Positions 899 to 63,300 of a DNA stretch of 64,000 nucleotides are shown here, one piece after another. The DNA is from Sphingomonas bisphenolicum. GTDB lineage: Bacteria; Pseudomonadota; Alphaproteobacteria; Sphingomonadales; Sphingomonadaceae. The stretch is from contig NZ_AP018818.1 of NCBI RefSeq assembly GCF_024349785.1, forward strand, positions 434,001 to 498,000, read 5' to 3'. The position numbers and the translations under genes are program-made. Positions within the stretch are counted from its first letter, which is position 1; every line of letters begins with the position of its first letter. The notes below the pieces were generated by a model, which saw only the letters and a list, made by a program, of their open reading frames with translations, was not told the origin of the DNA and made no database searches.

Positions 899-928
899 TA
901 CATATCATTTAGTTTCATCCAATACGCA
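899..928. promoter_or_regulatory. Steroid-type operator (arms 9 bp, 12-bp spacer)
   Basis: Arm TACATATCA at 899-907 and arm CAATACGCA at 920-928 are separated by 12 bp. The second arm read inverted is TGCGTATTG. It lies 50 bp upstream of the SRPBCC gene start at 848. The first arm is degenerate (7 of 9 matches to TGCGTATCA at 46935), but the spacing is the same as at 1185, 32036, 41288, 42393, 46935 and 63271. Confidence 0.55.
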
Positions 929-1184
929 TATTGAAAATATGTGCCGGATTCATGCATAGATCGAAACGACATTGCCGGCATCTGCGATTTCCCCGGTGGC
1001 AGGCGCCAGATGGGCGGCGCCACATGCTCGCTACCCCTGTCCGGTTCACAGGGCCGCGGATAGTCGATGCACGGCTCATGCCGCGGGTGCCCGGACGGGC
1101 ATATCCATGCAGGCGATCGGCATGATCTTGCGAACCTCATGAAAAGACGCATATATATGAATATATATTCATATTAATCAATAT

Positions 1185-1214
1185 TGCGTATTATAATGAT
1201 ATTTTTATCACGCA
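1185..1214. promoter_or_regulatory. Steroid-type operator upstream of the SDR at 1304
   Basis: Arm TGCGTATTA (1185-1193) and arm TATCACGCA (1206-1214) are separated by 12 bp in a very AT-rich promoter region, 89 bp before the SDR start. Between this site and the one at 899-928 lies about 250 bp of GC-rich DNA in which I see no gene; an isolated half-site ACGCA is present at 1147-1151. Confidence 0.65.
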
Positions 1215-1303
1215 TTATATCAATTAATTCTTGCGCACATCTTGGGCGATCGGCTAGGCAGCGCGATATCAAGGCCAAAGATGGCAGCGATGGGAGAGCG
1301 GAC

Positions 1304-2095
1304 ATGACGGGACGGATGCAGGGCAAGGTGGCGATCGTCACCGGTGGCGCGCGGGGCATGGGCGAGGCGACCTGCCGCCTTTTCGCCAGGGAGGGCGCGA
1401 TCGTCGTCGTCGCCGATCTGCTGGAGGCGGAAGGCGCCGCGCTGGCGGCCGACATCGGCGGGGATGCGATGTTCGCGCGGCTGAATGTCGCGGAGGAGGG
1501 TGACTGGATCGCGCTGGTTGATGCCGTTCTAGCGCGCCACGGCCGGGTCGATGCGCTGGTCAACAATGCCGGGGTCGCCGCCTTCGCGCCGCTGGAAGCG
1601 CTGGAGGTCGCGGATATCGACCGGGTGCTGGCGGTCAATGTGAAGGGACCAATGCTGGGCCTGAAACATGTCGGCCGGGCGATGCGGGAGGCCGGGCGCG
1701 GCGCGATCGTCAACATCGCATCGGTGGACGGCTTTCGCGGGGTCAATTCGCTGGGCCTCTACAGCAGCTCAAAATGGGCGGTGCGCGGCCTTACCAAGAC
1801 GGCGGCGCTGGAATTCGGCCCGCATGGCGTGCGCGTCAATTCGGTCCATCCCGGCGGCGTGGATACGGTCATGGGGAATCCGCAGGGCCAGCAGGGCGCC
1901 GAACGCAACGAAAGCTATGGCCGCGTACCGTTGCAGCGTATCGGCGAACCGGAAGAAATCGCCGCAGCCAGCCTGTTCCTCTGTTCCGACGAGGCCAGCT
2001 ATATCAGCGGGGCGGAACTGGCGGTCGATGGCGGCTGGGCCGCTGGCTATTATCACCATTTCCTGCCCGGCGCGCCGGCCGGCCTTTCGGCCTGA
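1304..2095 (+). CDS. Short-chain dehydrogenase/reductase (hydroxysteroid-dehydrogenase-like)
   Basis: A 263-residue classical SDR that oxidises or reduces a secondary alcohol/ketone with NAD(P). It shows the TGGARGMG cofactor loop near residue 13, the NNAG motif, the S...YSSSK catalytic pair and a C-terminal DGGWAAGYY. The ATG at 1304 follows GGGAGAG and begins the conserved first strand; the open frame reaches back to 1184 but without a start signal. It is closest in feel to 3-alpha/20-beta-hydroxysteroid dehydrogenases. The upstream operator at 1185-1214 is of the steroid type, which supports a hydroxysteroid substrate; terpene alcohols are possible because the terpenoid block starts next door. 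Confidence 0.85.
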   Translation: MTGRMQGKVAIVTGGARGMGEATCRLFAREGAIVVVADLLEAEGAALAADIGGDAMFARLNVAEEGDWIALVDAVLARHGRVDALVNNAGVAAFAPLEALEVADIDRVLAVNVKGPMLGLKHVGRAMREAGRGAIVNIASVDGFRGVNSLGLYSSSKWAVRGLTKTAALEFGPHGVRVNSVHPGGVDTVMGNPQGQQGAERNESYGRVPLQRIGEPEEIAAASLFLCSDEASYISGAELAVDGGWAAGYYHHFLPGAPAGLSA

Positions 2096-2174
2096 CCCAC
2101 CGCGCCCGACCATATCCTTGGGCGGCAGCTTTTCAACGCGGCCATTTGAAAGCCAGGTCAGATGGCCCTTTGGC

Positions 2175-3088: not shown

Positions 3089-3163
3089 ACAGCCTGTGCC
3101 GGACCCGCGCCAAGACGGTCGAAAAATCGGCACGAAGCAATAGACGCTCAAGGAGAGACTCGC

Positions 3164-4303: not shown

Positions 4304-4318
4304 AAGGCGGTAGCCATA

Positions 4319-4360: not shown

Positions 4361-4963
4361 TTACATGGCGCCGGGCCGGCTGCCGGCAAACCCGTGCAGC
4401 AACAGGTCCGCCGCCTGTTCCGCGATCTGGGCCGGTGCCAATTTCCCCGGCCGATACCAGGACGAGCAGGAATCCAGCATGGCGATCAGGAATTTCCTGA
4501 CGACGGTGGCATCCAGCGCTGCGCTGGCGCTGCCGTCCGCCTGCGCGGCGACGATGAGATCGCGCCAATAATTGTCGAAGCTGGAATAGGCCGCCAGCAC
4601 GCGTCGCCGCATCTCGTCCGGCAGATCTTCGAACACGCGGGCGACGGCGGAGGAATAATCGTCGCCTGACAACAGAAAGTCGATATGCGCCACGATGGCG
4701 GCCCTGAGGCGGACCATCGGCGCGGCATCCGGCCCCAATACCTCGACCCTGGCCACGATATGGCGGCTATTGCGGTAAATACCTTCCATCATCACCTGTT
4801 CGACCAGATGATCCTTGGAGGGGAAATGATGATAGATACTGGGCGCCAACATGCCGGCGCCCTTCGCTATTTCACTGAGCTTCGCGCCTGCCAGTCCCTT
4901 CTGCCGGAGCGCTGTCGCGGCGGAATCGAGAATGCGCGTTCGGCCATTATCTACGTGTGCCAT
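4361..4963 (-). CDS. TetR/AcrR-family transcriptional regulator
   Basis: A 200-residue TetR-type repressor with helix-turn-helix K-L-S-E-I-A-K-G-A-G-x-L-A-P-S-I-Y-H-H-F-P-S-K-D-H-L near residues 33-57 and a helical ligand domain ending in a long amphipathic helix. The ATG at 4963 follows AGGGAG; the TTG at 4978 that opens the longer frame has no ribosome site. It is the last gene after lyase and hydrolase genes transcribed from the divergent promoter near 8.0 kb (monooxygenase 7994, hydratase, lactonase, then this gene), so it is probably autoregulated through the palindrome at 8027-8040. It is a second candidate for the CTAAT-N4-ATTAG regulator. Confidence 0.85.
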   Translation of the reverse strand: MAHVDNGRTRILDSAATALRQKGLAGAKLSEIAKGAGMLAPSIYHHFPSKDHLVEQVMMEGIYRNSRHIVARVEVLGPDAAPMVRLRAAIVAHIDFLLSGDDYSSAVARVFEDLPDEMRRRVLAAYSSFDNYWRDLIVAAQADGSASAALDATVVRKFLIAMLDSCSSWYRPGKLAPAQIAEQAADLLLHGFAGSRPGAM

Positions 4964-32035: not shown

Positions 32036-32065
32036 TGCGGAATATTACAAATAATTATTTCCGAA
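32036..32065. promoter_or_regulatory. Steroid-type operator variant upstream of acyl-CoA dehydrogenase operon
   Basis: Arms TGCGGAATA (32036-32044) and ATTTCCGAA (32057-32065), 12-bp spacer. Both arms share the change to CGGAA, so they match each other (TTCGGAAAT inverted) better than the consensus. The site is 200 bp upstream of the start at 31835, further than at the other genes. Confidence 0.5.
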
Positions 32066-32082: not shown

Positions 32083-32568
32083 TTAGTCGGCGTTTGCGCT
32101 CGCGCCATCGGTGATCCGCACGACGCGGTTGCTGAACTTTACCGTCCTGACCGCGAGCGAAGTTTCGATATGATAGACGCCGTCCATCGCAAGGATCTGC
32201 CCCGACGTCACGGTATGGAACCTGTCCAGATCGTCGTACAGGCAGGTCGCCATGATGTTGAACGGCCCCAGCATGATCATGACCGACTGAACCATCGGGA
32301 TATGCGCGATGTCGCGCGCGATCTGGCGGACATGGCCGGCTTCGGCCTGGACCGCTACGAAACCGATATTGGTGGCCTTTTCCAGCTTGAGACTGGTGAG
32401 CGCGGTAAAAGCGATCAGGCGATCCTGCTGCAACCGCTTGATCCGGCCCCGGATCGTGCCTTCATTGACGCCCAGGTCGCTCGCGATCTTGCGGTTGGAG
32501 ACGCGCGCGTCCTGCGCCAATATGTCGATCAACTGATGATCGAGATCGTCGAGATCGGGCCGGTTCAT
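32083..32568 (-). CDS. Lrp/AsnC-family transcriptional regulator
   Basis: A 161-residue Lrp/AsnC protein: winged helix L-D-H-Q-L-I-D-I-L-A-Q-D-A-R-V-S-N-R-K-I-A-S-D-L-G-V-N-E-G-T-I-R-G-R-I-K-R-L at 8-45, then the RAM effector/oligomerisation domain. It is the last gene of the nine-gene operon starting at 41234 and overlaps the previous Lrp gene by four bases. Its closest relative in the window is 54725-55216. Lrp proteins form dimers and octamers that wrap DNA with sites spaced by helical turns; it may read the steroid operator, which has arms two turns apart. Confidence 0.88.
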   Translation of the reverse strand: MNRPDLDDLDHQLIDILAQDARVSNRKIASDLGVNEGTIRGRIKRLQQDRLIAFTALTSLKLEKATNIGFVAVQAEAGHVRQIARDIAHIPMVQSVMIMLGPFNIMATCLYDDLDRFHTVTSGQILAMDGVYHIETSLAVRTVKFSNRVVRITDGASANAD

Positions 32569-33044
32569 GAAAGCCTCCGGCTGTCGATCGGGGCGGTGTC
32601 GAGGCCATATTTGACGATGTCGAGGCCGATCGCAGGGGTCATGGCGCGCACGCCGGGCACCTTGGCCAGCTTGTCGGTGATAAGCGGCGACAGTTCGTCC
32701 ATGTCCCGCAAGGTGAGGAGCAGGCTGATTTCATAGCGGCCAGTGACCAGATGGGCGGCAAACACCTCGCGATGAGCGGCCAGTTCCTCGGCGACGTCGA
32801 GCGCGGGACGGCCGCTGACCTCTACCGCCAGATGGATGAGGACATGATAACCATGGACCGCGAAATCGGAAACGGCGACGACGCGGAGCATCCCTGCATC
32901 CTCCATCCGTCGGATGCGCGTGGACACGGTGGAGGCGATCAGGCTGAGGGTCTCGGCGATCTGCTGGTTGGTCGCCCGGCCGTTATGTCGCAGATATTCG
33001 ACAATCTTGCGGTCCGTTTCGTCAAACGCGAAAACCTCACTCAT
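32565..33044 (-). CDS. Lrp/AsnC-family transcriptional regulator
   Basis: A 159-residue Lrp/AsnC regulator, with D-R-K-I-V-E-Y-L-R-H-N-G-R-A-T-N-Q-Q-I-A-E-T-L-S as its winged helix and V-S-T-R-I-R-R-M-E-D as recognition region, followed by a RAM domain. It is more like 55213-55695 than like its immediate neighbour, so the two-gene module was probably duplicated as a unit. Overlap of four bases with the next Lrp gene suggests coupled synthesis and perhaps hetero-oligomers. Confidence 0.88.
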   Translation of the reverse strand: MSEVFAFDETDRKIVEYLRHNGRATNQQIAETLSLIASTVSTRIRRMEDAGMLRVVAVSDFAVHGYHVLIHLAVEVSGRPALDVAEELAAHREVFAAHLVTGRYEISLLLTLRDMDELSPLITDKLAKVPGVRAMTPAIGLDIVKYGLDTAPIDSRRLS

Positions 33045-33053
33045 AGGATTGCT

Positions 33054-34376
33054 CTATCCCCTTTCCTGCTCCGGTCTTGCCAGCAAAGGGTCGGCAGGTC
33101 GAATCGAAACCGCGTGGTGCAGCATCGTCCGATCCCGCTCTACGCGGGCGCCCGCGGCCCAGCCTAGCAGCGCGGAGAGGAAGCCGAAGGGGATGATGAA
33201 CGACAGCGCCATGCGCAGCGCCGCGGCGTCATGCCCCAGCATCTGGCTGAGCGCCCCCGTCGCCCAAGGGCCGACGAAGAAGCCGAGCAGGGTCGTGACG
33301 GCGAGGAACAGCGCGGTCGATGCAGCGCGGATGCGCGGCGGCAGCATATATTGCAGGGTCGCCATGAAGCCCACAGACCAACCACCCCCCAAAAGTCCGG
33401 CCGGGATGGCGGCAAGGCGCGCCATGTCGAAGCTGCCCGCCCAAGTCGCCGCCATGATAGCGCAGGTCGCCGCCCCCAGCGCCAAGGCGGACAGGCGCGA
33501 GGGCCAGACCATGCTGCGCCGCGCCAGGCGATCGGACAGCGCGCCGAAGAGCAGCATGCCGACCAGCCCGGACAGGCCGAAATTGAGCGCGAAGGTCATC
33601 TTCACCGCCACCGGATCAAGCGCGAAGCCGCGGGTGAGCAGTTCCGGGCCCCAATAGCCGAAGGACACGCCCGACAGCACACCGAAGCCGAAAGCGAACA
33701 TCATGCACAGATAGGCCGGGCTGCGGATCAGGCTGCGGATCAACTGGCCGAACGGCACGGCGTCAATCGGTGCAGCGCCGCCGGCCGGACCGCGGCGCGG
33801 CTCGCGGATCACGGCGAGCGCGGCAAAGCCTAGCAGCACGCCCACAGCGCCGATGCTGTAGAAGGCCATGCGCCAGTCATGATGCGCGGCGATCGCCGGA
33901 CCGCCCGCCTGCCCGCCGATCTGGCCGATATAGGCGGCAAGGCCGAGGATCGCGAACGCCAGGCCACGCCGTTCGGGCCGGAAATAATCCGACAGCAGCG
34001 AATAGGCGGGTGCGACGAACGCCGCCTCTCCCACGCCCACCGCGATCCGCGCCAGCGTCAGGCCGACCGGGCCGGCAGCAAGGCCGGTGCCGATGGTGGC
34101 GATGCTCCACAGCACGCAGCCCGCCGCGATGATCTGGACGCGGGAAGTGCGGTCCGCCAGCCGCGCGAACGGGACGCCGAGGACGACATAGAGAAAGACG
34201 AAGGCCGGCCCCATCAACATGCCGACCATGGCGTCGCCGATGCCGAACTCCGCCTTGATCGGCCCGATCAGCCCGGTGATCAGATAGCGGTCGGCATAGT
34301 TGACGATATAGATGAGCAGCAGCGTTACGAGGACGAGCCACGGATTGGATGTTCTCTGGACGGGGGCGTCAGTCAC
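33054..34376 (-). CDS. MFS transporter (spinster-like)
   Basis: A 440-residue transporter with about twelve hydrophobic segments. The first helix ends N-Y-A-D-R-Y-L-I, and the loop between helices two and three carries G-V-P-F-A-R-L-A-D-R-T-S-R, the MFS motif A region. G-E-A-A-F-V-A-P-A-Y-S-L-L-S-D-Y-F matches spinster-type carriers. The start is taken as GTG 34376, overlapping the previous SDR by eight bases; the frame further upstream lies inside that gene. In this operon it probably moves the steroid or a product across the inner membrane. Confidence 0.85.
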   Translation of the reverse strand: MTDAPVQRTSNPWLVLVTLLLIYIVNYADRYLITGLIGPIKAEFGIGDAMVGMLMGPAFVFLYVVLGVPFARLADRTSRVQIIAAGCVLWSIATIGTGLAAGPVGLTLARIAVGVGEAAFVAPAYSLLSDYFRPERRGLAFAILGLAAYIGQIGGQAGGPAIAAHHDWRMAFYSIGAVGVLLGFAALAVIREPRRGPAGGAAPIDAVPFGQLIRSLIRSPAYLCMMFAFGFGVLSGVSFGYWGPELLTRGFALDPVAVKMTFALNFGLSGLVGMLLFGALSDRLARRSMVWPSRLSALALGAATCAIMAATWAGSFDMARLAAIPAGLLGGGWSVGFMATLQYMLPPRIRAASTALFLAVTTLLGFFVGPWATGALSQMLGHDAAALRMALSFIIPFGFLSALLGWAAGARVERDRTMLHHAVSIRPADPLLARPEQERG

Positions 34377-35130
34377 GCAGCAGTGACCCGCCATTGACGT
34401 GCCAGAGCTGACCATTGACCCATTCGCCATCGTCGGACGCGAGGAAGGCGACCGCGCCGGCAATATCGTCCGGCTGGCCCAGCCGCCGGTGCGGCAGGTT
34501 GTCCAGCATCGATGCGACATAATCGTCGGTCAGATGCTGGGCCACCGCTTCGGTCAGGACGACGCCGGGGCAGATGCCGTTGGCGCGGATGCCCTGCTTG
34601 CCATATTTGCGCGCGACATGACGTACCAGCGCGTGCAGCGCATTCTTGGTCATGGGATAGGCGACCTGCAACGGGTTGCCGGAAATCGCCGCGCCCGAAG
34701 AGGTGTAGATCATGGTGCCGCCGCCGCGTTCGATCAGTATCGGCAGGGCGGCCTGCGTCGCCAGGAAATGGCTCTTGGCGTTGATGGCGAAGGAACGGTC
34801 AAGCACCGCTTCGCTGCAATTAAGTATGTCGATATCGCCTTCTGTCCCACCCGCAAGATTACTGTGGTAGAAATCAAGGCGGCCAAATTCGGCCAGCGCT
34901 GCTTCGACGATAGCGGCCTGCGATGTTGCTTTGGTCCCGTCGAGCGCCACGCCGATCGCCTTGCCACCTTCCGCGCAGATGATGCGGGCGGTTTCCGCCG
35001 CCCAGTCGCTCTCGATGTCGCCGATCACCACCGACGCGCCTTCGGCCGCCAGCCGCCGCGCCGTCGCAGCGCCGATGCCACGTCCGCCGCCCGCAACAAT
35101 TCCTGTTTTCCCCGCCAATCCGCGCATCAT
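34369..35130 (-). CDS. Short-chain dehydrogenase/reductase
   Basis: A 253-residue SDR: A-G-G-G-R-G-I-G at 11-18, G-D-I-E after strand two, the usual N-N-A-G replaced by S-N-L-A-G, catalytic S-S-G...Y-P-M-T-K and H-V-N-G-G-S at the end. The double ATG at 35130/35127 follows GGAGATA; the frame to 35172 overlaps the amidase. It lies between the amidase and the transporter in the nine-gene operon. The altered active-site region suggests an unusual substrate, but the Tyr-Lys pair is intact. Confidence 0.82.
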   Translation of the reverse strand: MMRGLAGKTGIVAGGGRGIGAATARRLAAEGASVVIGDIESDWAAETARIICAEGGKAIGVALDGTKATSQAAIVEAALAEFGRLDFYHSNLAGGTEGDIDILNCSEAVLDRSFAINAKSHFLATQAALPILIERGGGTMIYTSSGAAISGNPLQVAYPMTKNALHALVRHVARKYGKQGIRANGICPGVVLTEAVAQHLTDDYVASMLDNLPHRRLGQPDDIAGAVAFLASDDGEWVNGQLWHVNGGSLLRD

Positions 35131-35144
35131 TATCTCCAGATATC

Positions 35145-36650
35145 TTATGGTGCCGGACGCCGGTCTTTCCACGGCGCGGCCTTTTCCAGCTGCCCCGCCA
35201 GACGGAACAGGGTTGCCTCGTCGCCATAGCGCCCCATGAACATGACGCCGACCGGCAAGCCATTCTTGGCCATGCCCAGCGGCACCGACATGGCTGGCTG
35301 ACCGGTCATGTTGGCAATCTGGGTGAAGGGCGAGAAGGCCGCGGTCCGCTGTCCCCAGGCCATAAAATCAACATCGGGGGTCAGGTTGATCCGGCCCAGC
35401 TCCAGCGGCGGCGCCGCCAGCGTGGGGGACAGGATCACATCATACCGCGCCATGAACTGCGCCATTATGACGGCGGCGGTTTGCAGCGTATTGTTCGCCC
35501 GCGCGAAGTCCATGCCGGTCGTTTTTTGCCCATAGCCGACAAAGCCCAGCGTGATCGGCTCCAGAACGTCCGGCCCGATCGCGATCCCGGTTGCCTTGGC
35601 GCGGTCCAGCATATCGGCGGCCACGGACGCGCCGACCAAAACGAAGCTCGCCGCGCCGATCGCCGCGACATCCAGTTTCGGCGCTGCTTCCTCCACATGA
35701 TGGCCGAGCGTTTCGCACAGGCGCGCGGCCCGGCGGGTGGCTTCGATACAGTCCGGATCGACCGGCGCGCCCGACGGGGCATTGAGCATCAGCGCGATAC
35801 GCAGGCGGCCGGGTGCCTTGCCGACCTGCGACAGGAAGCTCTCGGCCGGGGTCGGCGCTGCATAGCGCCCCCCCGGTTCCGGACCTTGGGTCGCGTCGAG
35901 GATCGCTGCGGAATCGCGCACGCTGCGGGTGATGGCGTGATGCACCGACAGCCCGCCCCAGCCTTCGGTGCGGGGCGGCCCCATCGGCACCCGGCCGCGA
36001 CTGGGCTTAAGGCCGAACAGGCCACAACAGGAAGCCGGGATGCGGATCGACCCGCCGCCGTCCGTCGCATGGGCCGCGGGCAGCACGCCCGCCGCCACCG
36101 CCGCCGCCGCGCCGCCCGACGATCCGCCGGTGATATGGGCGGGGTTCCACGGATTGCGCGTGTCGCCGGTCAGTTTGTTTTCGGTCGTACCGGTGAGCCC
36201 GAGTTCGGGCACGGTCGTCTTGCCGAAGATGACGAAGCCCGCCGCCTCGATCCGGCGCACCAGTTCGGACGTGATGTCGGGCTTGTAGCCTCTGAAAAAG
36301 CGGCTGCCATTTTCGGTCGCCAGGCCGGCGATATAGGTGTTGAGATCCTTGAGCAGCCAGGGCACGCCGCTGAACGGTCCCTGCGGCAATCCCTTGGCGA
36401 TCGCCGCGTGGCCATAGTCATAATGTTTCTGCGCCAGGAAGTTGAAGCGCGGATTGAGCGCCTCCGCGCGGCCGATCGCCGCGTCCAGCAATTCGGTCGC
36501 CGAAACCTGCTTGCGGCGGACGAGGTCGGCCAGCCCCATCGCGTCATGGGTGTCGAGCGGGCCGGAGGACAAAGCGGCCGCCCGGGCCGTTCCCGCCAGG
36601 CCGGCTAACGCCGTGGCGCCCGCCATGGCTTCGCGCCGTGTCATATCCAT
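35145..36650 (-). CDS. Amidase-signature hydrolase with Tat signal
   Basis: A 501-residue amidase-signature enzyme with the Ser-Ser-Lys triad: Lys101 (W-L-L-K-D), Ser177/178 in G-G-S-S-G-G and Ser201 in D-G-G-G-S-I-R-I-P-A-S. The N-terminus T-R-R-E-A-M-A-G-A-T-A-L-A-G-L-A-G-T-A is a twin-arginine signal, so the enzyme probably works in the periplasm. The ATG at 36650 follows GGAGAGG. It lies next to a Rieske oxygenase. It could split amide-conjugated bile acids or an amide formed on the side chain; the location fits processing of incoming conjugates. Confidence 0.82.
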   Translation of the reverse strand: MDMTRREAMAGATALAGLAGTARAAALSSGPLDTHDAMGLADLVRRKQVSATELLDAAIGRAEALNPRFNFLAQKHYDYGHAAIAKGLPQGPFSGVPWLLKDLNTYIAGLATENGSRFFRGYKPDITSELVRRIEAAGFVIFGKTTVPELGLTGTTENKLTGDTRNPWNPAHITGGSSGGAAAAVAAGVLPAAHATDGGGSIRIPASCCGLFGLKPSRGRVPMGPPRTEGWGGLSVHHAITRSVRDSAAILDATQGPEPGGRYAAPTPAESFLSQVGKAPGRLRIALMLNAPSGAPVDPDCIEATRRAARLCETLGHHVEEAAPKLDVAAIGAASFVLVGASVAADMLDRAKATGIAIGPDVLEPITLGFVGYGQKTTGMDFARANNTLQTAAVIMAQFMARYDVILSPTLAAPPLELGRINLTPDVDFMAWGQRTAAFSPFTQIANMTGQPAMSVPLGMAKNGLPVGVMFMGRYGDEATLFRLAGQLEKAAPWKDRRPAP

Positions 36651-36694
36651 GCGAACCTCTCCTGCCCTTATCATTGTAATCGGCTTGATGGATG

Positions 36695-37801
36695 TCAGTC
36701 AGCGCTCTGATCGATATAATAGCGCTGATAATATTTGCGGAATTGCGGGATCGGGCCGTCACCGTCGCAGATGATCGGATTGGGTTCGAACTTCTGCCGG
36801 TCCCACACCACCTTGTCCTGATCGAACTGCTTGCAGATGTCGCGGATGATCGCCTTGGCGACGCCGGCCCGCTCGCCCTCCGCCTGCGCCTTGGGCTGGG
36901 TGAAGCAGAAGCGGACATGGACATGGTCCAGTTCGACCGGGGCCAGGCAGGCCATCAGCAGCGTCTCCGAAATGCCGGTGAAGCGCGTCCAGCTTTGCCC
37001 CGGCCCCATCGTGTCGTAACTGATAAGGCCATCGACCTCGCCCCAGGGCGTGCCCATCTTCGCCTTCACGTCCGCGCCCCGGCCCCATTCGCCCCAGCGC
37101 AATTCGCCCAGCGGCACATTGGCAGTGCCATGGATGAAGCGGAAATGCGCAACGTCGACGCCATTTTCGGCCATGTTCTGGATCGATCCCCAGACATTCC
37201 ATTCATGCACGTCGAAATCGGTCCATTCGGGGTCGGTCGCTTCGGGCAGGATCGCGACGTCGAACAGGGGCGCGACGTCCTGCGGATGATACCAGGCCCA
37301 GATCCAGCGGTTCGCTTCGGTGATGTGCCAGTTGCGGGTGCATTTGCGCTTCACCTGGGGCGGGATATTGCGGGCATAGGGTACGTCCTTCACTACCGCC
37401 TCGTCCCCGTCATAACGCCAGGCGTGGAAAGGACATTCGAGCAGATTGCCATGCACCTTGCCACCATGGCCCATATGGGCGCCCAGATGCTTGCAATAGG
37501 CGTCGAGCATACGGACCTGGCCGTCTTCGCCGCGCCAGATCGCCAGATCCTGCGAGAAATAGCGCAGCGGCTTGACCTCACCTGCCGCGAGGTCAGACGA
37601 CAGCAGCAGCGGATACCAGCCGAAGGGGATGCCGATATCGAGATTGCGCTCCGCAATCGAAGCGCGACCCTCCACTTCCGCCAGGCGCCAGTCGCTCAGA
37701 TCCTGGCCGCGCAGCTTTTCGAGGACTTGCCAGACGGCAACAGGCGGGGTGCGCGCATCGGTGGCCTTGGTGGCGGCGGTGTCGGTATTGGTTTGGGACA
37801 T
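36695..37801 (-). CDS. Rieske non-heme iron oxygenase, KshA-like
   Basis: A 368-residue oxygenase with Rieske ligands Cys103-x-His105 and Cys123-x-x-His126. The iron site has Asp216 followed by His219 and His224 (H-x-x-x-x-H-G), with Asn209 upstream. It is close in layout to KshA and to cholesterol-desaturase-type Rieske enzymes and differs clearly from the protein at 23906. The start is taken as ATG 37801 after GCGAGG; an ATG at 37819 would overlap the amidohydrolase stop. No reductase gene is nearby. As part of the amidase/CoA-ligase operon it may act on the side chain rather than at C9. Confidence 0.83.
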   Translation of the reverse strand: MSQTNTDTAATKATDARTPPVAVWQVLEKLRGQDLSDWRLAEVEGRASIAERNLDIGIPFGWYPLLLSSDLAAGEVKPLRYFSQDLAIWRGEDGQVRMLDAYCKHLGAHMGHGGKVHGNLLECPFHAWRYDGDEAVVKDVPYARNIPPQVKRKCTRNWHITEANRWIWAWYHPQDVAPLFDVAILPEATDPEWTDFDVHEWNVWGSIQNMAENGVDVAHFRFIHGTANVPLGELRWGEWGRGADVKAKMGTPWGEVDGLISYDTMGPGQSWTRFTGISETLLMACLAPVELDHVHVRFCFTQPKAQAEGERAGVAKAIIRDICKQFDQDKVVWDRQKFEPNPIICDGDGPIPQFRKYYQRYYIDQSAD

Positions 37802-37815
37802 GGGAACCTCGCGGA

Positions 37816-38685
37816 TCATTGCAGGTCGAAGACCTTGCGCGCGTTTTCACGCAGGAATTTGGGCCAGACATCGTCCTTGAACGGGACATTTTCCATATCG
37901 CTGAAGATACGGTCCAGGCTGAGACCCATCGGAAAATAGCCGGCATAGATGATCTTGTCAGCGCCGCGCGTATTGGCGTAGTCGATGATCGCCTTGGGAT
38001 AATGTTTGGGTGCGAAGGCGCTGGTCGAATAATAAAGGTTGGGCCATTTCAGCATCAACTTGACCGCCAGCGCCTCCCACGGCTCAGCGCCGTGGCGCAT
38101 GACGACTTTAAGGTCGGGGAAAAACCAGCAGACTTCGTCCAGATGCTCGACCTTCTGCGTTTCCATCGGGATGCGCGGACCGGGGATGCCGGCATTGAGC
38201 AGAACCGGCAGGCCCAGTTCCGCAGCACAAGCGTAGAGCGGGAACATATATTTATGGTTGATCGCCACCTGCGGCAACGTGCCGGCCGGGAAGATGCTGA
38301 TCGCGGACAGGCCGACCTCGCCATGAATGCGCTTGATGCGGCGTATTTCCTCCATCCCGTTATTGGGGTCGCAGGGCAGGTCGAAGAAGAAGCGGTCGCC
38401 GAACATCTCCTTGGCGCGATAGGACGTCGCATTGTCGTTCCAGCCGACCAGCGCCTTGTCGATATTGTGCCGGTCCATCTGCTCGACGGTCCAGGAGACA
38501 AAATCGTCGGTCTTGCCGGTCTGCGGAATGTCCTTGAACATATATTGCGCTGGCATGGCGAATTGCTGGAGCGTCTGCTGATCCTTGATCAGCGGGCGGA
38601 AGGGGGCGAACCATGCGGAACGGTCCTCGGCCTCCGGTATGCCCAACATGCAGTCAATGATCTTGATATCCTTGGGAAACCCCAT
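37816..38685 (-). CDS. Amidohydrolase-2 family protein with degenerate metal site
   Basis: A 289-residue TIM-barrel protein of the amidohydrolase-2 family, seen from V-V-M-R-H-G-A-E-P-W-E-A-L, the N-L-Y-Y-S-T-S-A strand and the terminal helix layout. The N-terminal H-x-H metal motif is missing (the strand reads I-I-D-C-M-L-G-I-P) and the late G-S-D-x-P aspartate position reads A-G-Y-F-P. So it may bind no metal, or a different one. The ATG at 38685 follows AGGAGAG. It is tightly packed between the CoA ligase and the Rieske oxygenase. A lyase or binding role is possible. Confidence 0.75.
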   Translation of the reverse strand: MGFPKDIKIIDCMLGIPEAEDRSAWFAPFRPLIKDQQTLQQFAMPAQYMFKDIPQTGKTDDFVSWTVEQMDRHNIDKALVGWNDNATSYRAKEMFGDRFFFDLPCDPNNGMEEIRRIKRIHGEVGLSAISIFPAGTLPQVAINHKYMFPLYACAAELGLPVLLNAGIPGPRIPMETQKVEHLDEVCWFFPDLKVVMRHGAEPWEALAVKLMLKWPNLYYSTSAFAPKHYPKAIIDYANTRGADKIIYAGYFPMGLSLDRIFSDMENVPFKDDVWPKFLRENARKVFDLQ

Positions 38686-38699
38686 GGAAACTCTCCTGT

Positions 38700-40349
38700 T
38701 CAATAGTTCGCGACCAGTTGCGGCCACAGCGCCCGAAGCGCGATCTTGTCGATTTTTTCGGCATGGTTGCGCGGCAGGGGTGCGCGCGAAAAGGCGACAT
38801 GGGCGGGCGCTTTGTAGGGCGCGAGCCGCCCGGCGACCCAATCGATGATGGCGCGTTCGTCCAGGCCATCGGCCTGCACGACGGCGACCAGCGCCTCGCC
38901 CAGGCGATCATCCGCAATGCCGAAGGTCGCGCATTCGGTGATTTGCGGCATTTCGCTCAGCACCCGCTCGACTTCGGCGCAGTAGATATTTTCGCCGCCG
39001 GAGATGACCATATCCTTCGCCCGGTCAACGATGAAGATATAGCCATCCTCATCCTGATAGCCGATGTCGCCGGTGCGCAACCAGCCGTCGGGCGTAAAGC
39101 TCTTGGCGGTATCGTCCGGCCGGTTCCAGTAGCCGCGCATGACCATGGCGCTGCGCACCACGATCTCGCCGGTTGCATGGGGACCGCAGATTGCGCCGTC
39201 CGCCCCTTCGATCCGCAGATCGACCAGCGGCAGCACCCGGCCAGCCGAAGCGCGCGCGCGCAGGAAATCCGCGCCCACCGCCTGGGCGATCGCGCCCGAC
39301 GTTTCGGTCATGCCATAGCCCACGCCCATCAGCGCATGGGGGCAGAGCGCCCGCACCTCCTCCAGCAGGTTGAGGGGCAGCGCCTGCCCGCCCGACCCGA
39401 TATTGCGCACAGAGCTGAGATCCGCATCGGTCAGCCGCGCGCGATTGACCATGTCCCACAACATGGTCGGCACGGTGGCCAGTTGCGTCACCCGTTCGCG
39501 GGCGATCAGGGCGACGGCTTCCTCCGCATTCCAGCGGCGCATGATGACGATCTTGCCGCCCGACAGGAAGGGCGCGAGGAAGCCGGCGCCCAGCCCGGAA
39601 ATATGGAAGAGCGGCGAGACGAGCAGGCTCGCCTGCGGCGGCATCTGCGCCGTCAGCGCCTCCACCGACAGGCCATGGTCGCGCGCCATATTGTGCAGCA
39701 CCATCGTGCCGGTAAGCTGGGTGCCCAGCAGGCCCGTGATCAGGCTGCGATGCGATAGCACCGCGCCCTTGACACGCCCGGTGGTGCCGGAGGTGAAGAG
39801 AATGGCGCAGGGATCGTCATGGTCAGCGGTCATGCCGTCTACGAAGGGGACGTCCGCAGCCGCGAGCGGCGCGATCAGGTCCAGCAGACGGCCCTGATAG
39901 CCCGCGTCACGCAGCGCGGCGGCGCGTTCGCTATCGGCCAGCACGAGGGCCGGCGTCACTTCGTCCACCATCGCGCGCGCTTCCGCCGCCGAGCCGCGGC
40001 TGTTGAGCAGAACCGCAACCCCGCCCAGCCGGATGACGGCAAGAAACGCCACGATCCATTCCGCCCGGTTGCGCATGGCAATGGCGACGCGGTCGCCGCG
40101 CCGGATGTCCAGATGCCCCGCCAGCCGGTCGCGCCAGGCGAAGATGTCCGCGAAACTCAGCCGGCGTTCCCTGCCCGCCTCGTCAAAGTCGACGATACAG
40201 GGCCGGTCGCCAAAGCCGCGCGCCTTTTCGATGAGCTGGTTGAGATCGGACGGCGCGTGGGCAAAAAAGCGCAGTCCGTCCTGTTCGGCGATCTCGAACG
40301 GGGTGCCGGATGCGGTGACTGCCGCGAAAATGGGGTCGATCTTGCTCAT
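38700..40349 (-). CDS. AMP-forming acyl-CoA synthetase
   Basis: A 549-residue adenylate-forming ligase. The P-loop is A-I-L-F-T-S-G-T-T-G-R-V-K-G near residue 183; G-Y-G-M-T-E-T is the second motif; W-L-R-T-G-D-I-G-Y-Q-D-E-D-G-Y the hinge. The final lysine region is less typical (R-N-H-A-E-K-I-D-K) but keeps a Lys. It is 12 bp from the SDR upstream and 14 bp from the amidohydrolase downstream. It probably activates a steroid side-chain acid such as a bile acid C24 carboxylate, or a ring-degradation acid; sequence does not decide between them. Confidence 0.87.
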   Translation of the reverse strand: MSKIDPIFAAVTASGTPFEIAEQDGLRFFAHAPSDLNQLIEKARGFGDRPCIVDFDEAGRERRLSFADIFAWRDRLAGHLDIRRGDRVAIAMRNRAEWIVAFLAVIRLGGVAVLLNSRGSAAEARAMVDEVTPALVLADSERAAALRDAGYQGRLLDLIAPLAAADVPFVDGMTADHDDPCAILFTSGTTGRVKGAVLSHRSLITGLLGTQLTGTMVLHNMARDHGLSVEALTAQMPPQASLLVSPLFHISGLGAGFLAPFLSGGKIVIMRRWNAEEAVALIARERVTQLATVPTMLWDMVNRARLTDADLSSVRNIGSGGQALPLNLLEEVRALCPHALMGVGYGMTETSGAIAQAVGADFLRARASAGRVLPLVDLRIEGADGAICGPHATGEIVVRSAMVMRGYWNRPDDTAKSFTPDGWLRTGDIGYQDEDGYIFIVDRAKDMVISGGENIYCAEVERVLSEMPQITECATFGIADDRLGEALVAVVQADGLDERAIIDWVAGRLAPYKAPAHVAFSRAPLPRNHAEKIDKIALRALWPQLVANY

Positions 40350-40361
40350 GGCGTTCCCGGA

Positions 40362-41234
40362 TCAGTAAACGGCTGCAGGGTTTTTGGGCCGGGGACTGCC
40401 CAGCATCTCGCGATAGGAAGGGCGGTCGTTGCCGCGATCCTGCACGCCCAGTTGGCGCCCGATTTCCGCGCCGATCAATGTCTGGCCGGACAAGGCCTCC
40501 CGATCCGGCGCGCAGTCGATCGCGTCGATGATATGCGCGGTGAATTGCGGATTTTCCGCACTTTCGATGAAGTCGGCATATTGTTCGGGATTGGTGTCGC
40601 GCGCGATCAGCGACCGTTCGGTAACCAGTGGCCCCATCCAGATCGACACCGCGATCACGCCGGTTCCGCGCAGATCATGCTCCATGTCATGGGCGAATTT
40701 GTCCACGCCCGCCTTTTGCGCGCCATAGGCCGGGCCGTGCATGTAGCAACTGCCGCCAAAGGACGAACCAAAGGCGATCACGCCGCGCCCCTGCGGCACC
40801 ATCAGCCGCGCCGCGTGCCAGCTTGCCACATAGGCGGAGCGAAGACCGACATCGAGGATGCGAACCGCGTCCAGATCCTTTTCCCAAAAGGGCTTTTTCT
40901 CGATCAGTTGGTCGTGGATGAAGGTCGCGTTGTTCACCAATATGTCGAGCCGCCCCGCTTCCGCCGCAATCCGGTCGAACAGCCCTGCGACCTGGGCATC
41001 GTCGCCATGGTCGCAGACCAGCGGAATGCCCCGGCCGCCGGCCGCATCGACCGCCGCCGCAGTTTCCGCCACGGTGCCAGGCAGCACGGATCCGTCCCAG
41101 CCCCGCGCATTCCCGACATGCATCGTGCGGCCGGTCACATAGACGGTATAGCCCAATTCGCCGAAACCGACCGCGATGCCACGGCCTGCTCCCCGACTGG
41201 CTCCGGTGACCAGGGCCACCTTGCTGTCCGGCAT
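40362..41234 (-). CDS. SDR family oxidoreductase, DHRS1-like
   Basis: A 290-residue SDR, paralog of 23031-23897. It shares T-G-A-S-R-G-A-G-R-G-I, Y-V-T-G-R-T, the W-H-A-A-R helix, S-S-F-G, Y-G-A-Q-K-A-G-V-D-K and the tail R-P-S-Y-R-E-M-L-G. NNAG is N-N-A-T here. It is the first gene of the nine-gene operon, 53 bp downstream of the operator at 41288. Each paralog sits beside a KshA-like gene set, so they may act on the products of the two oxygenases. Confidence 0.82.
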   Translation of the reverse strand: MPDSKVALVTGASRGAGRGIAVGFGELGYTVYVTGRTMHVGNARGWDGSVLPGTVAETAAAVDAAGGRGIPLVCDHGDDAQVAGLFDRIAAEAGRLDILVNNATFIHDQLIEKKPFWEKDLDAVRILDVGLRSAYVASWHAARLMVPQGRGVIAFGSSFGGSCYMHGPAYGAQKAGVDKFAHDMEHDLRGTGVIAVSIWMGPLVTERSLIARDTNPEQYADFIESAENPQFTAHIIDAIDCAPDREALSGQTLIGAEIGRQLGVQDRGNDRPSYREMLGSPRPKNPAAVY

Positions 41235-41287: not shown

Positions 41288-41317
41288 CGCGTAATTCAAC
41301 AATTATATTCTTACGCA
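41288..41317. promoter_or_regulatory. Steroid-type operator in divergent promoter region
   Basis: Arms CGCGTAATT (41288-41296) and TCTTACGCA (41309-41317), 12-bp spacer. It is 53 bp from the nine-gene operon start (41234) and 217 bp from the divergent SDR (41535). The 300-bp gap 41235-41534 holds no gene and is AT-rich; further degenerate half-sites lie at 41354-41362 and 41381-41407. Confidence 0.6.
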
Positions 41318-41534
41318 TATCCAGATTTGACAGATTGCCCGCGCGATCGCCGAATTTCCGCATATACATACGATTTTCTGGGCGTATTGATAGTTATTCG
41401 ACACGCACTCAGGCGCTATATTCGTATTTTTATGATTTACAAATTCCGCATTATGCTCACATATCGCCGTTGAGACGTCGTCCTGAAACGCAAATGCGCA
41501 AGGCGACCTTCGACACATGGAGAGGTGATGGCGA

Positions 41535-42392: not shown

Positions 42393-42422
42393 TGCGTAAT
42401 TTATATTGACATCAATTACGCA
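42393..42422. promoter_or_regulatory. Steroid-type operator, perfect 9-bp arms
   Basis: TGCGTAATT (42393-42401) and AATTACGCA (42414-42422) are perfect inverted copies with a 12-bp AT-rich spacer that includes TTGACA (42406-42411 region). The site ends 46 bp before the TonB receptor start. It is the best-matching member of the family and a good seed for a motif search. Confidence 0.75.
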
Positions 42423-46934: not shown

Positions 46935-46964
46935 TGCGTATCATATAGCCATATAAACTACGAT
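46935..46964. promoter_or_regulatory. Steroid-type operator between KstD and SDR genes
   Basis: Arms TGCGTATCA (46935-46943) and AACTACGAT (46956-46964), 12-bp spacer. It ends 26 bp before the SDR start (46991) and is 116 bp from the KstD start (46818), so it can serve both promoters. Confidence 0.6.
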
Positions 46965-50620: not shown

Positions 50621-50651
50621 GGCGCATCATATTTCCGTGACATAATACGCA
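50621..50651. promoter_or_regulatory. Weak steroid-type operator (13-bp spacer)
   Basis: Arm GGCGCATCA (50621-50629) and arm TAATACGCA (50643-50651) resemble the operator family, but the spacer is 13 bp and the first arm has two mismatches. A separate half-site TGCGTTTTA at 50685-50693 lies just before the NTF2-fold gene at 50711. The region separates divergent genes. Confidence 0.4.
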
Positions 50652-54724: not shown

Positions 54725-55216
54725 TCAGTCGTCCGCCGTCATGCGCGTAATCTTGGCGATGCCTGCCTCATATTTGAGGTTGTGGACGGAGATGGAGGTT
54801 TCGACCCGCTGCACGCCCGGCATCGGCCGGATGCGATCGATGATGAGGTCGTTGAGCTGCTCGATATTGGTGAACAGGCCCATCGCCAGCAGGCTGTAAC
54901 GGCCGAGCAGCACCACGACGCATGTGATTTCGGGAATATCAGACAGAGCGCGAGCGAGGTCGGACACATGCGAGGGGTCGGCATCGATCCCCATCATGCA
55001 GAGATTGGGCGACCCGGCCATGCGGAAGTCGGTGACCACGGTGAACTGGATCAGCCCTTCATTCTGCAACCGCTTGATCCGGGTGCGGATCGTGCCTTCG
55101 GTCACGCCCAGTTCGGCGGCGATGGCGCGATTGGAGATGCGGGCGTCCTGCGCCAGCTTGTCGACGATACCCTGATCGAGCTTGTCCAGGCGTTCCCAGG
55201 TCGGGCGTTCGGTCAT
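54725..55216 (-). CDS. Lrp/AsnC-family transcriptional regulator
   Basis: A 163-residue Lrp/AsnC protein with winged helix L-D-Q-G-I-V-D-K-L-A-Q-D-A-R-I-S-N-R-A-I-A-A-E-L-G-V-T-E-G-T-I-R-T-R-I-K-R-L and a RAM domain. It is the paralog of 32083-32568. It overlaps the upstream Lrp gene by four bases and converges on the LuxR-type gene with only five bases between their ends. Confidence 0.88.
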   Translation of the reverse strand: MTERPTWERLDKLDQGIVDKLAQDARISNRAIAAELGVTEGTIRTRIKRLQNEGLIQFTVVTDFRMAGSPNLCMMGIDADPSHVSDLARALSDIPEITCVVVLLGRYSLLAMGLFTNIEQLNDLIIDRIRPMPGVQRVETSISVHNLKYEAGIAKITRMTADD

Positions 55217-55695
55217 AGCGGCACCACGTTGAATTCGAATTTCACAATGTCCACCGCGATGCCGGACGTGATGTGCACGACCCCGTCGATACCGGCGATA
55301 TGATCGAACAGAAGCTGCTGCACCTCCGAAAAATCATGCAACGCCACCAGCAGTTCGAGATCATGATCGCCATTCATGATGTTGACGCTGAGCACCTCCG
55401 GGAATTTGGCGAGATCGCGACCGACATCCGGGATGCTGCGCCCCTGCACCTTCACGCCCAGCGCGATGATGACATTATAGCCATGGGCGGCGAAGTCTGT
55501 GACCGCCACGACGCGCATGACCCGCGCCTCTTCCATCTTCTGCAAGCGGGCGGACACGGTGGCGGCGGTAACGGACAGGCGCTCGGCGATTTCCTGGTTC
55601 GTCGCCCGACCATTGGTCCGCAATATGTCGATGATATTGGTGTCCAGACCGTCCAACGTCGGCGGCGTACCGTTTCGCCCGCTTCTGATCTGCAT
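55213..55695 (-). CDS. Lrp/AsnC-family transcriptional regulator
   Basis: A 160-residue Lrp/AsnC protein, paralog of 32565-33044 (shared N-G-R-A-T-N-Q-x-I-A-E, R-V-V-A-V-x-D-F-A-x-H-G-Y, I-V-K-x-x-x). The ATG at 55695 follows GGGAGGCGGG; a GTG at 55701 is close by. It leads a two-gene regulator unit whose upstream region (55696-56127) holds several TGCGTA half-sites and an 18-bp palindrome, which points to autoregulation or control by another protein. Confidence 0.88.
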   Translation of the reverse strand: MQIRSGRNGTPPTLDGLDTNIIDILRTNGRATNQEIAERLSVTAATVSARLQKMEEARVMRVVAVTDFAAHGYNVIIALGVKVQGRSIPDVGRDLAKFPEVLSVNIMNGDHDLELLVALHDFSEVQQLLFDHIAGIDGVVHITSGIAVDIVKFEFNVVPL

Positions 55696-59895: not shown

Positions 59896-59907
59896 GAAAC
59901 CTCCACT

Positions 59908-61190: not shown

Positions 61191-61998
61191 GGAGGAATTC
61201 GAGCGCATAGCGATTAAACTCTGCGGCCCGCTCCACCTGCACCCAATGACCGACCTTGTTGAACGTCACGCAGCGCACGTCGGGGCACGCCTCGAAAAAG
61301 AGTGTGATGCCCTCCAGCGGCATGAAGCGCTCATTATAGCCCCAGAAGAGCAGGATCGGCATGGTGAGTTCGCCCAGGCGCGGCGCCAGATTGGGCGTAC
61401 GCATCCGCATGATCACATCCTTGGGCTGGGTGCGAGCGACGGCGAAGCGTTCTTTAACCAGGTCATCCGTGACATGGACGGGATCATGAACCAGATTGGT
61501 TATCAATCGACGCTGTTCATCTTCGTTGAAATCGGGACCGCCAAAGGAACTGACCATGCCGGCGATACCCGGCATCTTGAAATAGTCCTCGCGCTCATGA
61601 ATGCAGCCCGGCGCCATCAGGATCAGGCGGTCGACAAAGGCCGGATGGTCGAGCGCCATCTGGATCGCGATACCGCCGCCCAGGGAGTTGCCGACCAATA
61701 TCGCCTTGTCCACGCCATGGGCGACAAGCGCTTCATAGAGGGTGTCGGTGAAAAGTTGCAGCGTATAGTCGATATCTTCGGGCTTGGACGACGCGCCATA
61801 GCCGATCAGGTCAGGCAGGATGACGCGAAATCCGGCGTCTGCGAAGGCCTGCACATTCTGCCGGAAATTGGACTGGCCCGATGCACCCGGTCCGCTGCCA
61901 TGGATGAAGACCAGCGCGGGGCCGGCACCCACTTCGGCCAGCATAATGTCATGGCCGCCCGCCACGCGATGCGTGCGGCAGCTGATGTCATGCGTCAT
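61183..61998 (-). CDS. hsaD: Meta-cleavage-product hydrolase (HsaD-like)
   Basis: A 271-residue alpha/beta hydrolase of the C-C bond hydrolase group. H-G-S-G-P-G-A-S-G at 33-41 forms the oxyanion hole, nucleophile Ser105 is in G-N-S-L-G-G, and V-G-H-W-V-Q near 250 holds the catalytic histidine. It hydrolyses the ring-cleavage product of the extradiol dioxygenase into a dienoate and the remaining bicyclic acid. It lies 10 bp downstream of hsaA. Confidence 0.9.
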   Translation of the reverse strand: MTHDISCRTHRVAGGHDIMLAEVGAGPALVFIHGSGPGASGQSNFRQNVQAFADAGFRVILPDLIGYGASSKPEDIDYTLQLFTDTLYEALVAHGVDKAILVGNSLGGGIAIQMALDHPAFVDRLILMAPGCIHEREDYFKMPGIAGMVSSFGGPDFNEDEQRRLITNLVHDPVHVTDDLVKERFAVARTQPKDVIMRMRTPNLAPRLGELTMPILLFWGYNERFMPLEGITLFFEACPDVRCVTFNKVGHWVQVERAAEFNRYALEFLHG

Positions 61999-62008
61999 AT
62001 GATGCTCC

Positions 62009-63241
62009 TCAGACGAAGGTGAAGGCCGGCGCTTCGCCGAGCATGGTGCCGACTACGTCACCGATGCGGTTGGCGGGATCGTTGGCGACATGCGCGCGGG
62101 CGGCATGAAGGTCGAGCCAGGGCTGGAGGATCGGACTGGACATGTAGACGGCCCGGCCGCCGAGCAGTTTCACCATGTCGTCGGCCAGGTCCGCCAGACG
62201 GCGCACGACGCTGGCCGACTGATAGGCGAACAGCGCGCGGCGCTGCATCGGAATGGCCTCGTCGCGTTCGGCATAGCCGATCAGCTCGTCGAAGGTCGCG
62301 CGATGGGTCAGCTCCATCTCGTCGGTTTCGGCAATGGCGCGGGCGATGGCAGCGTGCAGGTTCGGATCAGCCTTGGACGCCTTGCCGGTGTTGGTGGATA
62401 TCCGGCTCTGCATGATCTCGATCGCCGCCTGGATGGCGGCGCGCATACCACCGAAAGCAGCGGTGGAAACGGAGCGCGTGAACAATTGCGCCCAGGGCAT
62501 ACGATAGAGCGGGCCGTCATTGGCCTCCTGTCCCGGATTCTTGCAGGCGAAGCCATCGGCAGCACGATGGGTACGATATTCGGGGACGAACACCCGCTCC
62601 ACGAGGATGTCGAAACTGCCTGTACCCTGCAGCCCGAACGTATCCCATGTCCCTTCGATCACCTGATAGTCCGAGCGCGGCAACAGGAAGGTGCGCATGT
62701 CAGGCGGGCCGCCATCGGTGTCGAAATTGATCGCGCCCAGAAGCACCCAGCCGCAATGGCTCGAGCCCGAGGAAAAGCCCCAGCGCCCCGACAGGTAGAA
62801 ACCGCCTTCCGCTTTCTCCACCTTGCCCACCGGCTGATAGGTGGAGGACACCAGCATGTCAGGATCGTCGCCCCAGACATCTTGCTGCGCCCGGTCGTCG
62901 AACAACGCCAGTTCATAAGGATGACAGCCCAGCACGCCGTAGATCCAGCCAGTCGACATGCAGCCTTCGGCCAGCGCCTTCTGCACGTCGAAGAAGACAT
63001 TGGGATGCATCTCGTAACCGCCATGACGGCGCGGCTGGAGGATACGGAAGAATCCCGCCTCGGTCATTTCCGCCACCGTTTCGCGCGGTACGTCATTGGC
63101 CGCCGTGCAGCCGCGCGCGCGGCTTTTCAGCAGGGGAATCATGGCTCGCGCCCTTTCGACCAGCGCCTCGGCGGACGGCGCAAGCGCTTCGCCATTTCCC
63201 GTCGATCGATTTGCTGCTGCCGCGGTCATCCTCGTCTCCAT
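62009..63241 (-). CDS. hsaA: Flavin-dependent phenolic secosteroid monooxygenase, oxygenase component (HsaA-like)
   Basis: A 410-residue oxygenase with acyl-CoA-dehydrogenase fold. Instead of an acyl-CoA dehydrogenase it is the two-component monooxygenase type: G-F-F-R-I-L-Q-P-R-R-H-G-G-Y-E, S-T-G-W-I-Y-G-V-L-G-C-H, G-R-W-G-F-S-S-G-S-S-H-C-G-W-V, and a tail G-E-A-P-A-F-T. It hydroxylates the aromatised A-ring of the 9,10-secosteroid to a catechol, using reduced flavin from HsaB. The ATG at 63241 follows GGAGACTTTGG. It leads the eight-gene operon, divergent from hsaC, with the operator at 63271 between. Confidence 0.88.
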   Translation of the reverse strand: METRMTAAAANRSTGNGEALAPSAEALVERARAMIPLLKSRARGCTAANDVPRETVAEMTEAGFFRILQPRRHGGYEMHPNVFFDVQKALAEGCMSTGWIYGVLGCHPYELALFDDRAQQDVWGDDPDMLVSSTYQPVGKVEKAEGGFYLSGRWGFSSGSSHCGWVLLGAINFDTDGGPPDMRTFLLPRSDYQVIEGTWDTFGLQGTGSFDILVERVFVPEYRTHRAADGFACKNPGQEANDGPLYRMPWAQLFTRSVSTAAFGGMRAAIQAAIEIMQSRISTNTGKASKADPNLHAAIARAIAETDEMELTHRATFDELIGYAERDEAIPMQRRALFAYQSASVVRRLADLADDMVKLLGGRAVYMSSPILQPWLDLHAARAHVANDPANRIGDVVGTMLGEAPAFTFV

Positions 63242-63270
63242 CCAAAGTCTCCTGGACCATTTTGGCTATA

Positions 63271-63300
63271 TGCGTAGTTTATATAAATTTAAAATACGCA
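63271..63300. promoter_or_regulatory. Steroid-type operator between hsaA and hsaC
   Basis: Arms TGCGTAGTT (63271-63279) and AAATACGCA (63292-63300), 12-bp spacer, 29 bp before the hsaA start. Further TGCG half-sites at 63437-63463 (TGCGTATTA, TGCGATTCA, TGCGG) lie nearer the hsaC start at 63505. Confidence 0.7.

Follow-up and report, generated by a model that had tools for sequence, protein, structure and literature searches.

The promoters of steroid-degradation genes in sphingomonads contain an informative mirror-image element, TGCGTA-N18-TACGCA, 30 bp in all, which we analysed starting from a 64,000-bp stretch of the Sphingomonas bisphenolicum genome (contig NZ_AP018818.1, positions 434,001 to 498,000; in the following called the window, with positions counted from its first letter). 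Three features are apparent from the genome sequences and characterise it as an operator: the fixed spacing, the conservation in front of orthologous genes, and the fact that it is inherited with and linked to a tandem pair of Lrp/AsnC genes, here named A and B. We regard it as likely that this operator serves a steroid regulon and is bound by the A and B proteins, which would act as a mixed oligomer whose repression is relieved by a steroid metabolite. The operator accompanies this pair across many genera, and A-B would thus probably be the switch so far missing from the steroid pathway.

An operator of fixed spacing

Using 33 distinct sites of the own genus and 38 from other genera, we found the information content to be concentrated in W-TGCGTA-D, while the inner bases are AT-rich and of low specificity, which is lowest outside the own genus. 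Specific inner contacts (TWWATAT inside the arms), as suggested by the own genus, were dropped, as the 38 sites from other genera are nearly only AT-rich there. A preliminary description of the window had named eight places with 9-bp arms and a 12-bp spacer, and a site is found roughly as described at all eight, but the definition of arms and spacer and the quality of the matches had to be corrected. The fixed element consists instead of the hexamers TGCGTA and TACGCA at a distance of 18 bp, and the spacing of 21 bp, taken for two helical turns, is an artefact of counting 9-bp arms, as the centres of the informative hexamers are 24 bp apart.

The idea of a distinct operator family with fixed spacing was supported. 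In a 184-kb set made up of the window and six more 20-kb stretches of the same genome, pairs with at most one mismatch occur eight times at spacing 18 versus zero or one time at each of 40 other spacings (0 to 40). With this spacing control the enrichment also holds genome-wide at up to one mismatch: the 5.2-Mb genome contains eight such places (three exact and five with one mismatch), and all of them are located either in C2:435-518 kb, that is the window and 20 kb beyond, or in C1:1880-1914 kb. One of the eight, C1:1880259, lies within a predicted gene, has a GC-richer core and is probably a chance match. When two mismatches are allowed the genome shows 59 places versus 138 for a reversed-pattern control, and since the control exceeds the pattern, two-mismatch places mean little without their context. 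Within the window seven matches with up to two mismatches were counted, a number reached by none of 100 dinucleotide shuffles (mean 1.61, largest 6), and its intergenic sequence (6.7 kb in 29 gaps, as defined by our own gene caller) holds seven matches versus a mean of 0.20 and a maximum of 2 in 300 base shuffles. A matrix built solely from the sites of other genomes gives 13 places with a score above 12 in the 184 kb and recovers every site noted before except the one at 50621; the reversed matrix gives two places (12.5 and 12.3) in the same sequence. A structured RNA was also considered and rejected, with no Rfam match at the gathering threshold.

Conservation in orthologous promoters

The gene at 62009..63142 (-) fits hsaA in its acyl-CoA dehydrogenase domains, and we take this name from the preliminary description. 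An exact dyad (63271..63300) overlaps its presumed promoter, with a presumed -35 element TTGACA assigned by similarity at 63304..63309 (-), 3 bp before the dyad. Matches to hsaA are present in 18 of 94 genomes of the own genus, 15 of them with at least 80% identity, and all of these 15 have an exact dyad in front of an hsaA copy. Among the hsaA paralogues with 44-46% identity in the same 15 genomes five promoters score 15-26 and a sixth 12.3; three paralogues in genomes lacking hsaA have no site. Outside the own genus we compared the best site within 400 bp of hsaA for 26 of the 29 hsaA-bearing genomes. Three of these promoters carry the dyad without mismatch, 17 with one and five with two (25 of 26 with at most two), while no more than one of the 26 reaches one mismatch at any other spacing between 10 and 26. 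The exact sites of G304 and G299 are farther upstream of hsaA than the others, and a one-mismatch site precedes hsaA in G178. Conserved sites were also found in the promoters of TonB receptor genes, of the SDR gene at 48508 and of GMC genes. Lack of enrichment in a genome-wide scan and lack of conservation in orthologous promoters had been named beforehand as grounds for giving up the operator family; both enrichment and conservation were found.

In the aligned hsaA promoters of the 15 own-genus genomes the left arm is preceded at a distance of 3 bp by TTGAC[A/G/T], and the dyad contains a TATAT-like presumed -10 element; a TTGAC element is also located 3 bp before the hsaA dyad in G209, G473 and G304. 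In the TonB, SDR and GMC promoters with conserved sites it lies 6 or 0 bp before the dyad or, in most of seven TonB promoters (not in G375), in its centre. The hsaA dyad therefore spans the promoter spacer and the presumed -10 element, and the TonB dyad spans TTGACA.

The operator occurs together with the tandem Lrp pair

The window encodes two overlapping tandem pairs of full-length Lrp/AsnC proteins, in each case A followed by B: pair 1 with B1 (32083..32568, -) and A1 (32565..33044, -) and pair 2 with B2 (54725..55216, -) and A2 (55213..55695, -). All four proteins show an AsnC-type helix-turn-helix and an AsnC_trans_reg (RAM) domain above the Pfam cut-offs. In 36 loci the automated search found A in all and B in 35, and the one B missed by it (G044) is present as well. 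In the phylogenetic tree all B proteins are separated from all A proteins with a support of 1.000. Of all 14-residue stretches of B, the recognition helix is the most strongly conserved (0.96 with a mean of 0.69); in A its conservation exceeds the average (0.85 versus a mean of 0.71), and R50 is invariant across 10 aligned A proteins; a conserved recognition helix with a conserved arginine, as expected for a member of the Lrp/AsnC family, is thus present.

Among the best 80 of 368 loci found, to which we refer as the named loci, A is followed by B in 78. They include Sphingobium, Sphingomonas, Novosphingobium, Croceicoccus estronivorus and a Kordiimonadaceae bin, and also Nitrospirillum, Azospirillum, Caulobacter, Acidocella and gammaproteobacterial bins. 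In 42 of the 80 a site with at most one mismatch occurs at spacing 18 versus 0-5 loci at other spacings from 10 to 26, and in 29 the site is directly behind the pair, as it is at 32036 in the window. In each of the two Nitrospirillum strains the pair is accompanied by two exact sites; no site was found in the stretch examined around the pair of Azospirillum, Acidocella and C. estronivorus. Plasmid pNL2 of Novosphingobium aromaticivorans carries an A-B pair within a cluster; a two-mismatch site precedes the pair itself, and one-mismatch sites precede two genes for acyl-CoA dehydrogenases with 70% and 39% identity to hsaA. In strain ES2-1 a divergent tandem A-B pair (38% and 36% to A1 and B1) is preceded by an exact site whose end is 15 bp away. 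The same strain has a lone A-type Lrp gene (L324 19956-20486, 63% to A1), which is followed by a flavin reductase gene. In G147, a genome of another family, hsaA is accompanied by two tandem Lrp pairs that share an 8-kb stretch (L238 6961-7871 and 13355-14273).

Within the own genus (94 genomes) the 15 genomes that have hsaA with at least 80% identity are the same ones in which the A protein is found (E up to 1e-25). In the order as a whole, 33 of 396 genomes encode A (E up to 1e-30) and 41 contain the exact site, with 26 genomes having both, seven A only, 15 the site only and 348 neither, so that 26 of 33 A-bearing genomes carry the exact site versus 15 of 363 others (Fisher 5.5e-24). Leaving out the 15 own-genus genomes the numbers are 22, seven, 15 and 337, that is 22 of 29 versus 15 of 352 (Fisher 3.8e-20), and as the genomes are related both Fisher values overstate the association. 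The A-bearing genomes contain 46 exact sites, of which 29 are no more than 50 kb and eight no more than 2 kb away from an A gene. In 16 of 28 A-B loci outside the own genus, taken from 27 of the 29 A-bearing genomes, a site is present in 3.4 kb at spacing 18, versus zero or one locus at other spacings. With 60 permuted hexamers at N18 and up to one mismatch a mean of 0.27 loci was reached, the best value being 6 (for one hexamer) versus 16 for TGCGTA. An unbiased count of exact hexamer dyads in the 28 loci places CATCCG/N1 first (nine loci) and TGCGTA/N18 second (eight loci).

From the 15 genomes with the site only we looked at seven. In G304 a divergent pair (39% and 41%) adjoins the sites. 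No pair or steroid cluster was visible in the stretch viewed for G314, G403, G177 and G195; a single 44% match to window-region genes is located beside the site of G403, and the other three have no related neighbours. In G069 and G075, which belong to another family, an exact AT-rich dyad is next to a small open reading frame (L023 and L024, position 1501), presumably a look-alike of BrnT-type toxins. We take the exact sites in these six genomes as chance.

Proposed regulation and alternatives

According to the model that we consider likely, a mixed A/B oligomer would grip both TGCGTA arms via subunits of the same kind, with the AT-rich core bent in between. That the DNA is bent, and that two subunits of a larger Lrp assembly hold it, is suggested by the AT-richness of the core and by the distance of 24 bp from one hexamer centre to the other. 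Without substrate the complex would occupy the core promoters (spacer and presumed -10 of hsaA, TTGACA of the TonB genes) and block RNA polymerase, until a steroid-derived metabolite, perhaps a coenzyme A (CoA) thioester, binds to the RAM domains and relieves the block. As the dyad overlaps the presumed core promoter, repression is favoured, and its relief by a steroid metabolite is the most likely mode of action. Direct binding by A and B, the mixed oligomer, the choice of repression over activation, the co-transcription of the genes and the nature of the ligand are inferred. Pair 1 forms the end of a nine-gene run (32083..41234, -; CoA ligase, amidase, SDRs, MFS and others), which is probably co-transcribed judging from its gaps and has an operator with one mismatch upstream (41288..41317). 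Since pair 1 closes this run it is probably autoregulated, and together with the exact site before the pair of ES2-1 this makes autoregulation probable for some pairs. For pair 2 autoregulation is unsupported, as no full site recurs consistently in its upstream regions from 12 genomes, several of which contain a TACGCA-type half-site only.

A number of observations weigh against the model, among them this lack of a full site at pair 2. Twelve of 13 pair-2 loci (Sphingobium and a Sphingomonadaceae bin) and 38 of the 80 named loci have no site with at most one mismatch in the 3-5.5 kb examined, and seven of the 33 A-bearing genomes lack the exact site. The third hsaA copy of G010 has no dyad, hsaA of G469 has no site within 400 bp and that of G147 has no site with up to two mismatches directly before it. 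In A the highest conservation (0.89) is found in the stretch behind the recognition helix and not in the helix. A single short palindrome, as in the 13-bp site of the FL11 co-crystal described in the consulted part of PMC2995911, is not what the 30-bp dyad with its 18-bp spacer represents. Finally, hsaA (E up to 1e-120) occurs in 33 of the 396 genomes of the order, which is the A set without G073, where an hsaA-like gene (42%) is located beside the pair, but with G304. A-B and hsaA are thus inherited together almost perfectly, and a site that tracks the pair is inseparable in these genomes from one that tracks the steroid genes.

In the strongest alternative, the reader of the site is only one of the two pairs or a homo-oligomer of one protein, and the partner has a different role, for example in ligand sensing or modulation. 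G044, G124 and G126 keep the site with matches of the pair-2 type only, which favours this view, and the better conserved recognition helix of B and the lone A gene of ES2-1 point in the same direction; the tandem arrangement of A and B in nearly all named loci speaks against it, and we see it as possible yet doubtful. An activating role of the same Lrp pair at the same site, in which the assembly bends the DNA and recruits the polymerase once the ligand is bound, appears unlikely to us. Lrp proteins are able to activate or repress, according to the sections seen of PMC2995911, and for several sites the distance from centre to start codon is about 100 bp, which would fit an upstream position if the leaders are short, but the position of TTGAC at the hsaA dyads means that spacer and -10 are covered, and in the TonB dyads TTGACA is central. 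Least probable is a real site read by another regulator that is inherited with the steroid clusters, the Lrp pairs being mere regulon members or neighbours: any regulator tied equally to the pathway would give the same co-inheritance, and relatives of the LuxR protein encoded at 53646-54719 (E up to 1e-20) occur in 22 of 33 hsaA-bearing and none of 10 other genomes, but they are absent from 11 of the 33, ten of which have the exact site, the TetR protein at 2175 is present in only five of the 33, and no third regulator recurs in the 20-kb segments from other genera, where only relatives of window-region genes are visible.

These were the two other window regulators whose tracking was analysed, and both were rejected as readers; from the Lrp and LuxR proteins proposed in the preliminary description the comparison favours the Lrp pairs and goes against LuxR. 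The LuxR protein, in which a C-terminal GerE domain is the sole domain found, is perhaps an accessory steroid regulator.

More tentatively than the binding model itself, A and B may be an obligate hetero-oligomeric two-gene steroid sensor with a steroid-CoA and not an amino acid as ligand, and thereby an old master switch of the 9,10-seco pathway in Alphaproteobacteria. With the same reserve, such a switch might span Sphingomonadales, Kordiimonadaceae, Nitrospirillum and probably others.

Relation to known systems

The AsnC-type helix-turn-helix and the RAM domain of the four window proteins are shared with Lrp/AsnC regulators such as FL11, LrpA and E. coli Lrp. Solved relatives match over nearly the full length, namely PH0140 (E about 1e-18 and 1e-16) and PH1519, presumably identical to FL11 (about 1e-15 and 1e-12). 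What differs from other members of the family is that two diverged paralogues are kept in tandem, and in the context of steroid clusters. Bending and wrapping of DNA are known for the Lrp family, as stated in the part of PMC2995911 at hand. A precedent for paired subunits of the Lrp fold is the sirohaem decarboxylase AhbA/AhbB, described in the excerpt of PMC4145669 as a heterodimer of two Lrp/AsnC-like paralogues. In contrast to this enzyme of haem synthesis, the window pair has steroid-type neighbours and a well-conserved DNA-recognition helix.

In the window two TetR proteins were compared with NCBIfam: the one at 4361-4963 reaches 19.1 bits with the KstR model (cut-off 280), and KstR is not among the seven matches of the one at 2175-2855. 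The KstR motif looks different from the window operator. KstR and KstR2 are actinobacterial TetR-type repressors of sterol catabolism that control side-chain and ring degradation and are relieved by intermediates (passages of PMC8399759 and PMC6678751). The regulation proposed here is similar in being regulon-wide and relieved by pathway intermediates, and it is unlike theirs in protein family and operator sequence. For EdcR, a TetR protein for oestrogen from the sphingomonad steroid cluster of Caenibius tardaugens, a palindromic operator overlapping the -10 element has been proposed (PMC8700777, as far as its text was available). The position is alike, but the EdcR-type operator TnnCnnTACnAnTnGTAnnGnnA was rejected for the window, with no match at up to two mismatches. 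A LuxR-type gene within the cluster is reminiscent of TesR/TeiR of Comamonas testosteroni, which are of the LuxR type; relatives of the window gene are absent from 11 of the 33 hsaA-bearing genomes.

Regulation in bile-acid-degrading Proteobacteria is called 'still largely unknown' in the section of a review that we consulted (PMC8399759), and the portions available of this and two further papers describe proteobacterial regulation as largely unknown, or as worked out chiefly for TesR/TeiR and HsdR (PMC8399759, PMC6678751, PMC6895838). For a sphingomonad testosterone cluster no nearby regulator was found, according to the same part of PMC6895838. In the sections seen of PMC12882949 two contiguous Lrp/AsnC genes of strain Chol11 are mentioned together with amino-acid metabolism, there without a site or a test. 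Our searches of open-licence papers yielded none that links the site with Lrp proteins, and an earlier description in subscription papers is possible. Operator, regulon and regulator pair can now be tested jointly, for example in Novosphingobium aromaticivorans DSM 12444 or Sphingobium sp. Chol11, and if the model is true, two full-length Lrp paralogues would here be maintained as a single unit.

Further sites and genes

The remaining sites of the window lie near genes of various types. An operator-like dyad at 899..928 (two mismatches, score 17.8) is located between the open reading frames 354-848 (-) and 321-896 (+) on one side and the SDR gene 1304-2095 (+) on the other, and the operator at 1185..1214 (one mismatch) has its centre about 105 bp upstream of the same SDR gene. 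The weak operator at 32036..32065, just behind Lrp pair 1 and upstream of the acyl-CoA dehydrogenase gene 30777-31835 (-), has more than two mismatches yet scores 14.4 with the matrix from other genomes and is exact at the same position in G036. Upstream of the TonB receptor gene 42469-45012 (+) an exact operator with TTGACA in its centre was found (42393..42422), and the operator at 46935..46964 (two mismatches) between a KstD-like gene 45130-46818 (-) and the SDR gene 46991-47746 (+) is kept in G044. The site at 50621..50651, between the SDR gene 49825-50565 (-) and a SnoaL-like gene 50711-51244 (+), is indeed a dyad as noted before but a variant with a spacing of 19 bp; in G044 the corresponding intergenic sequence holds a site with a spacing of 18 and two mismatches.

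The eight places named initially were not the complete set. Within the window an operator at 41421..41450 (two mismatches, upstream of the SDR gene 41535-42308, +) has to be added, and outside of it C2:518282, C1:1906260 and C1:1913719, with C1:1893800 and C1:1894067 as weaker additional sites from the matrix scan. The C1 sites belong to a second cluster on the large replicon (C1:1893800-1913748) with the same operators. Genes for TonB receptors, for a GMC oxidoreductase and for a P450 are located in this region, several genes of which have relatives that flank the hsa cluster in other own-genus genomes.

A second block upstream of hsaA (63318-63370) is conserved in all 15 own-genus genomes and includes GGCAATTCGTT, CCTATA[A/T]GCA and a AATGNGCAA-like sequence, with variation inside it in one or two genomes. 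It is perhaps the promoter of the divergent gene or the site of another regulator. This divergent gene starts at about 63505 and is hsaC-like; near it a TACGCA-type half-site (63432-63444) is conserved, with a weak partner arm in some genomes.

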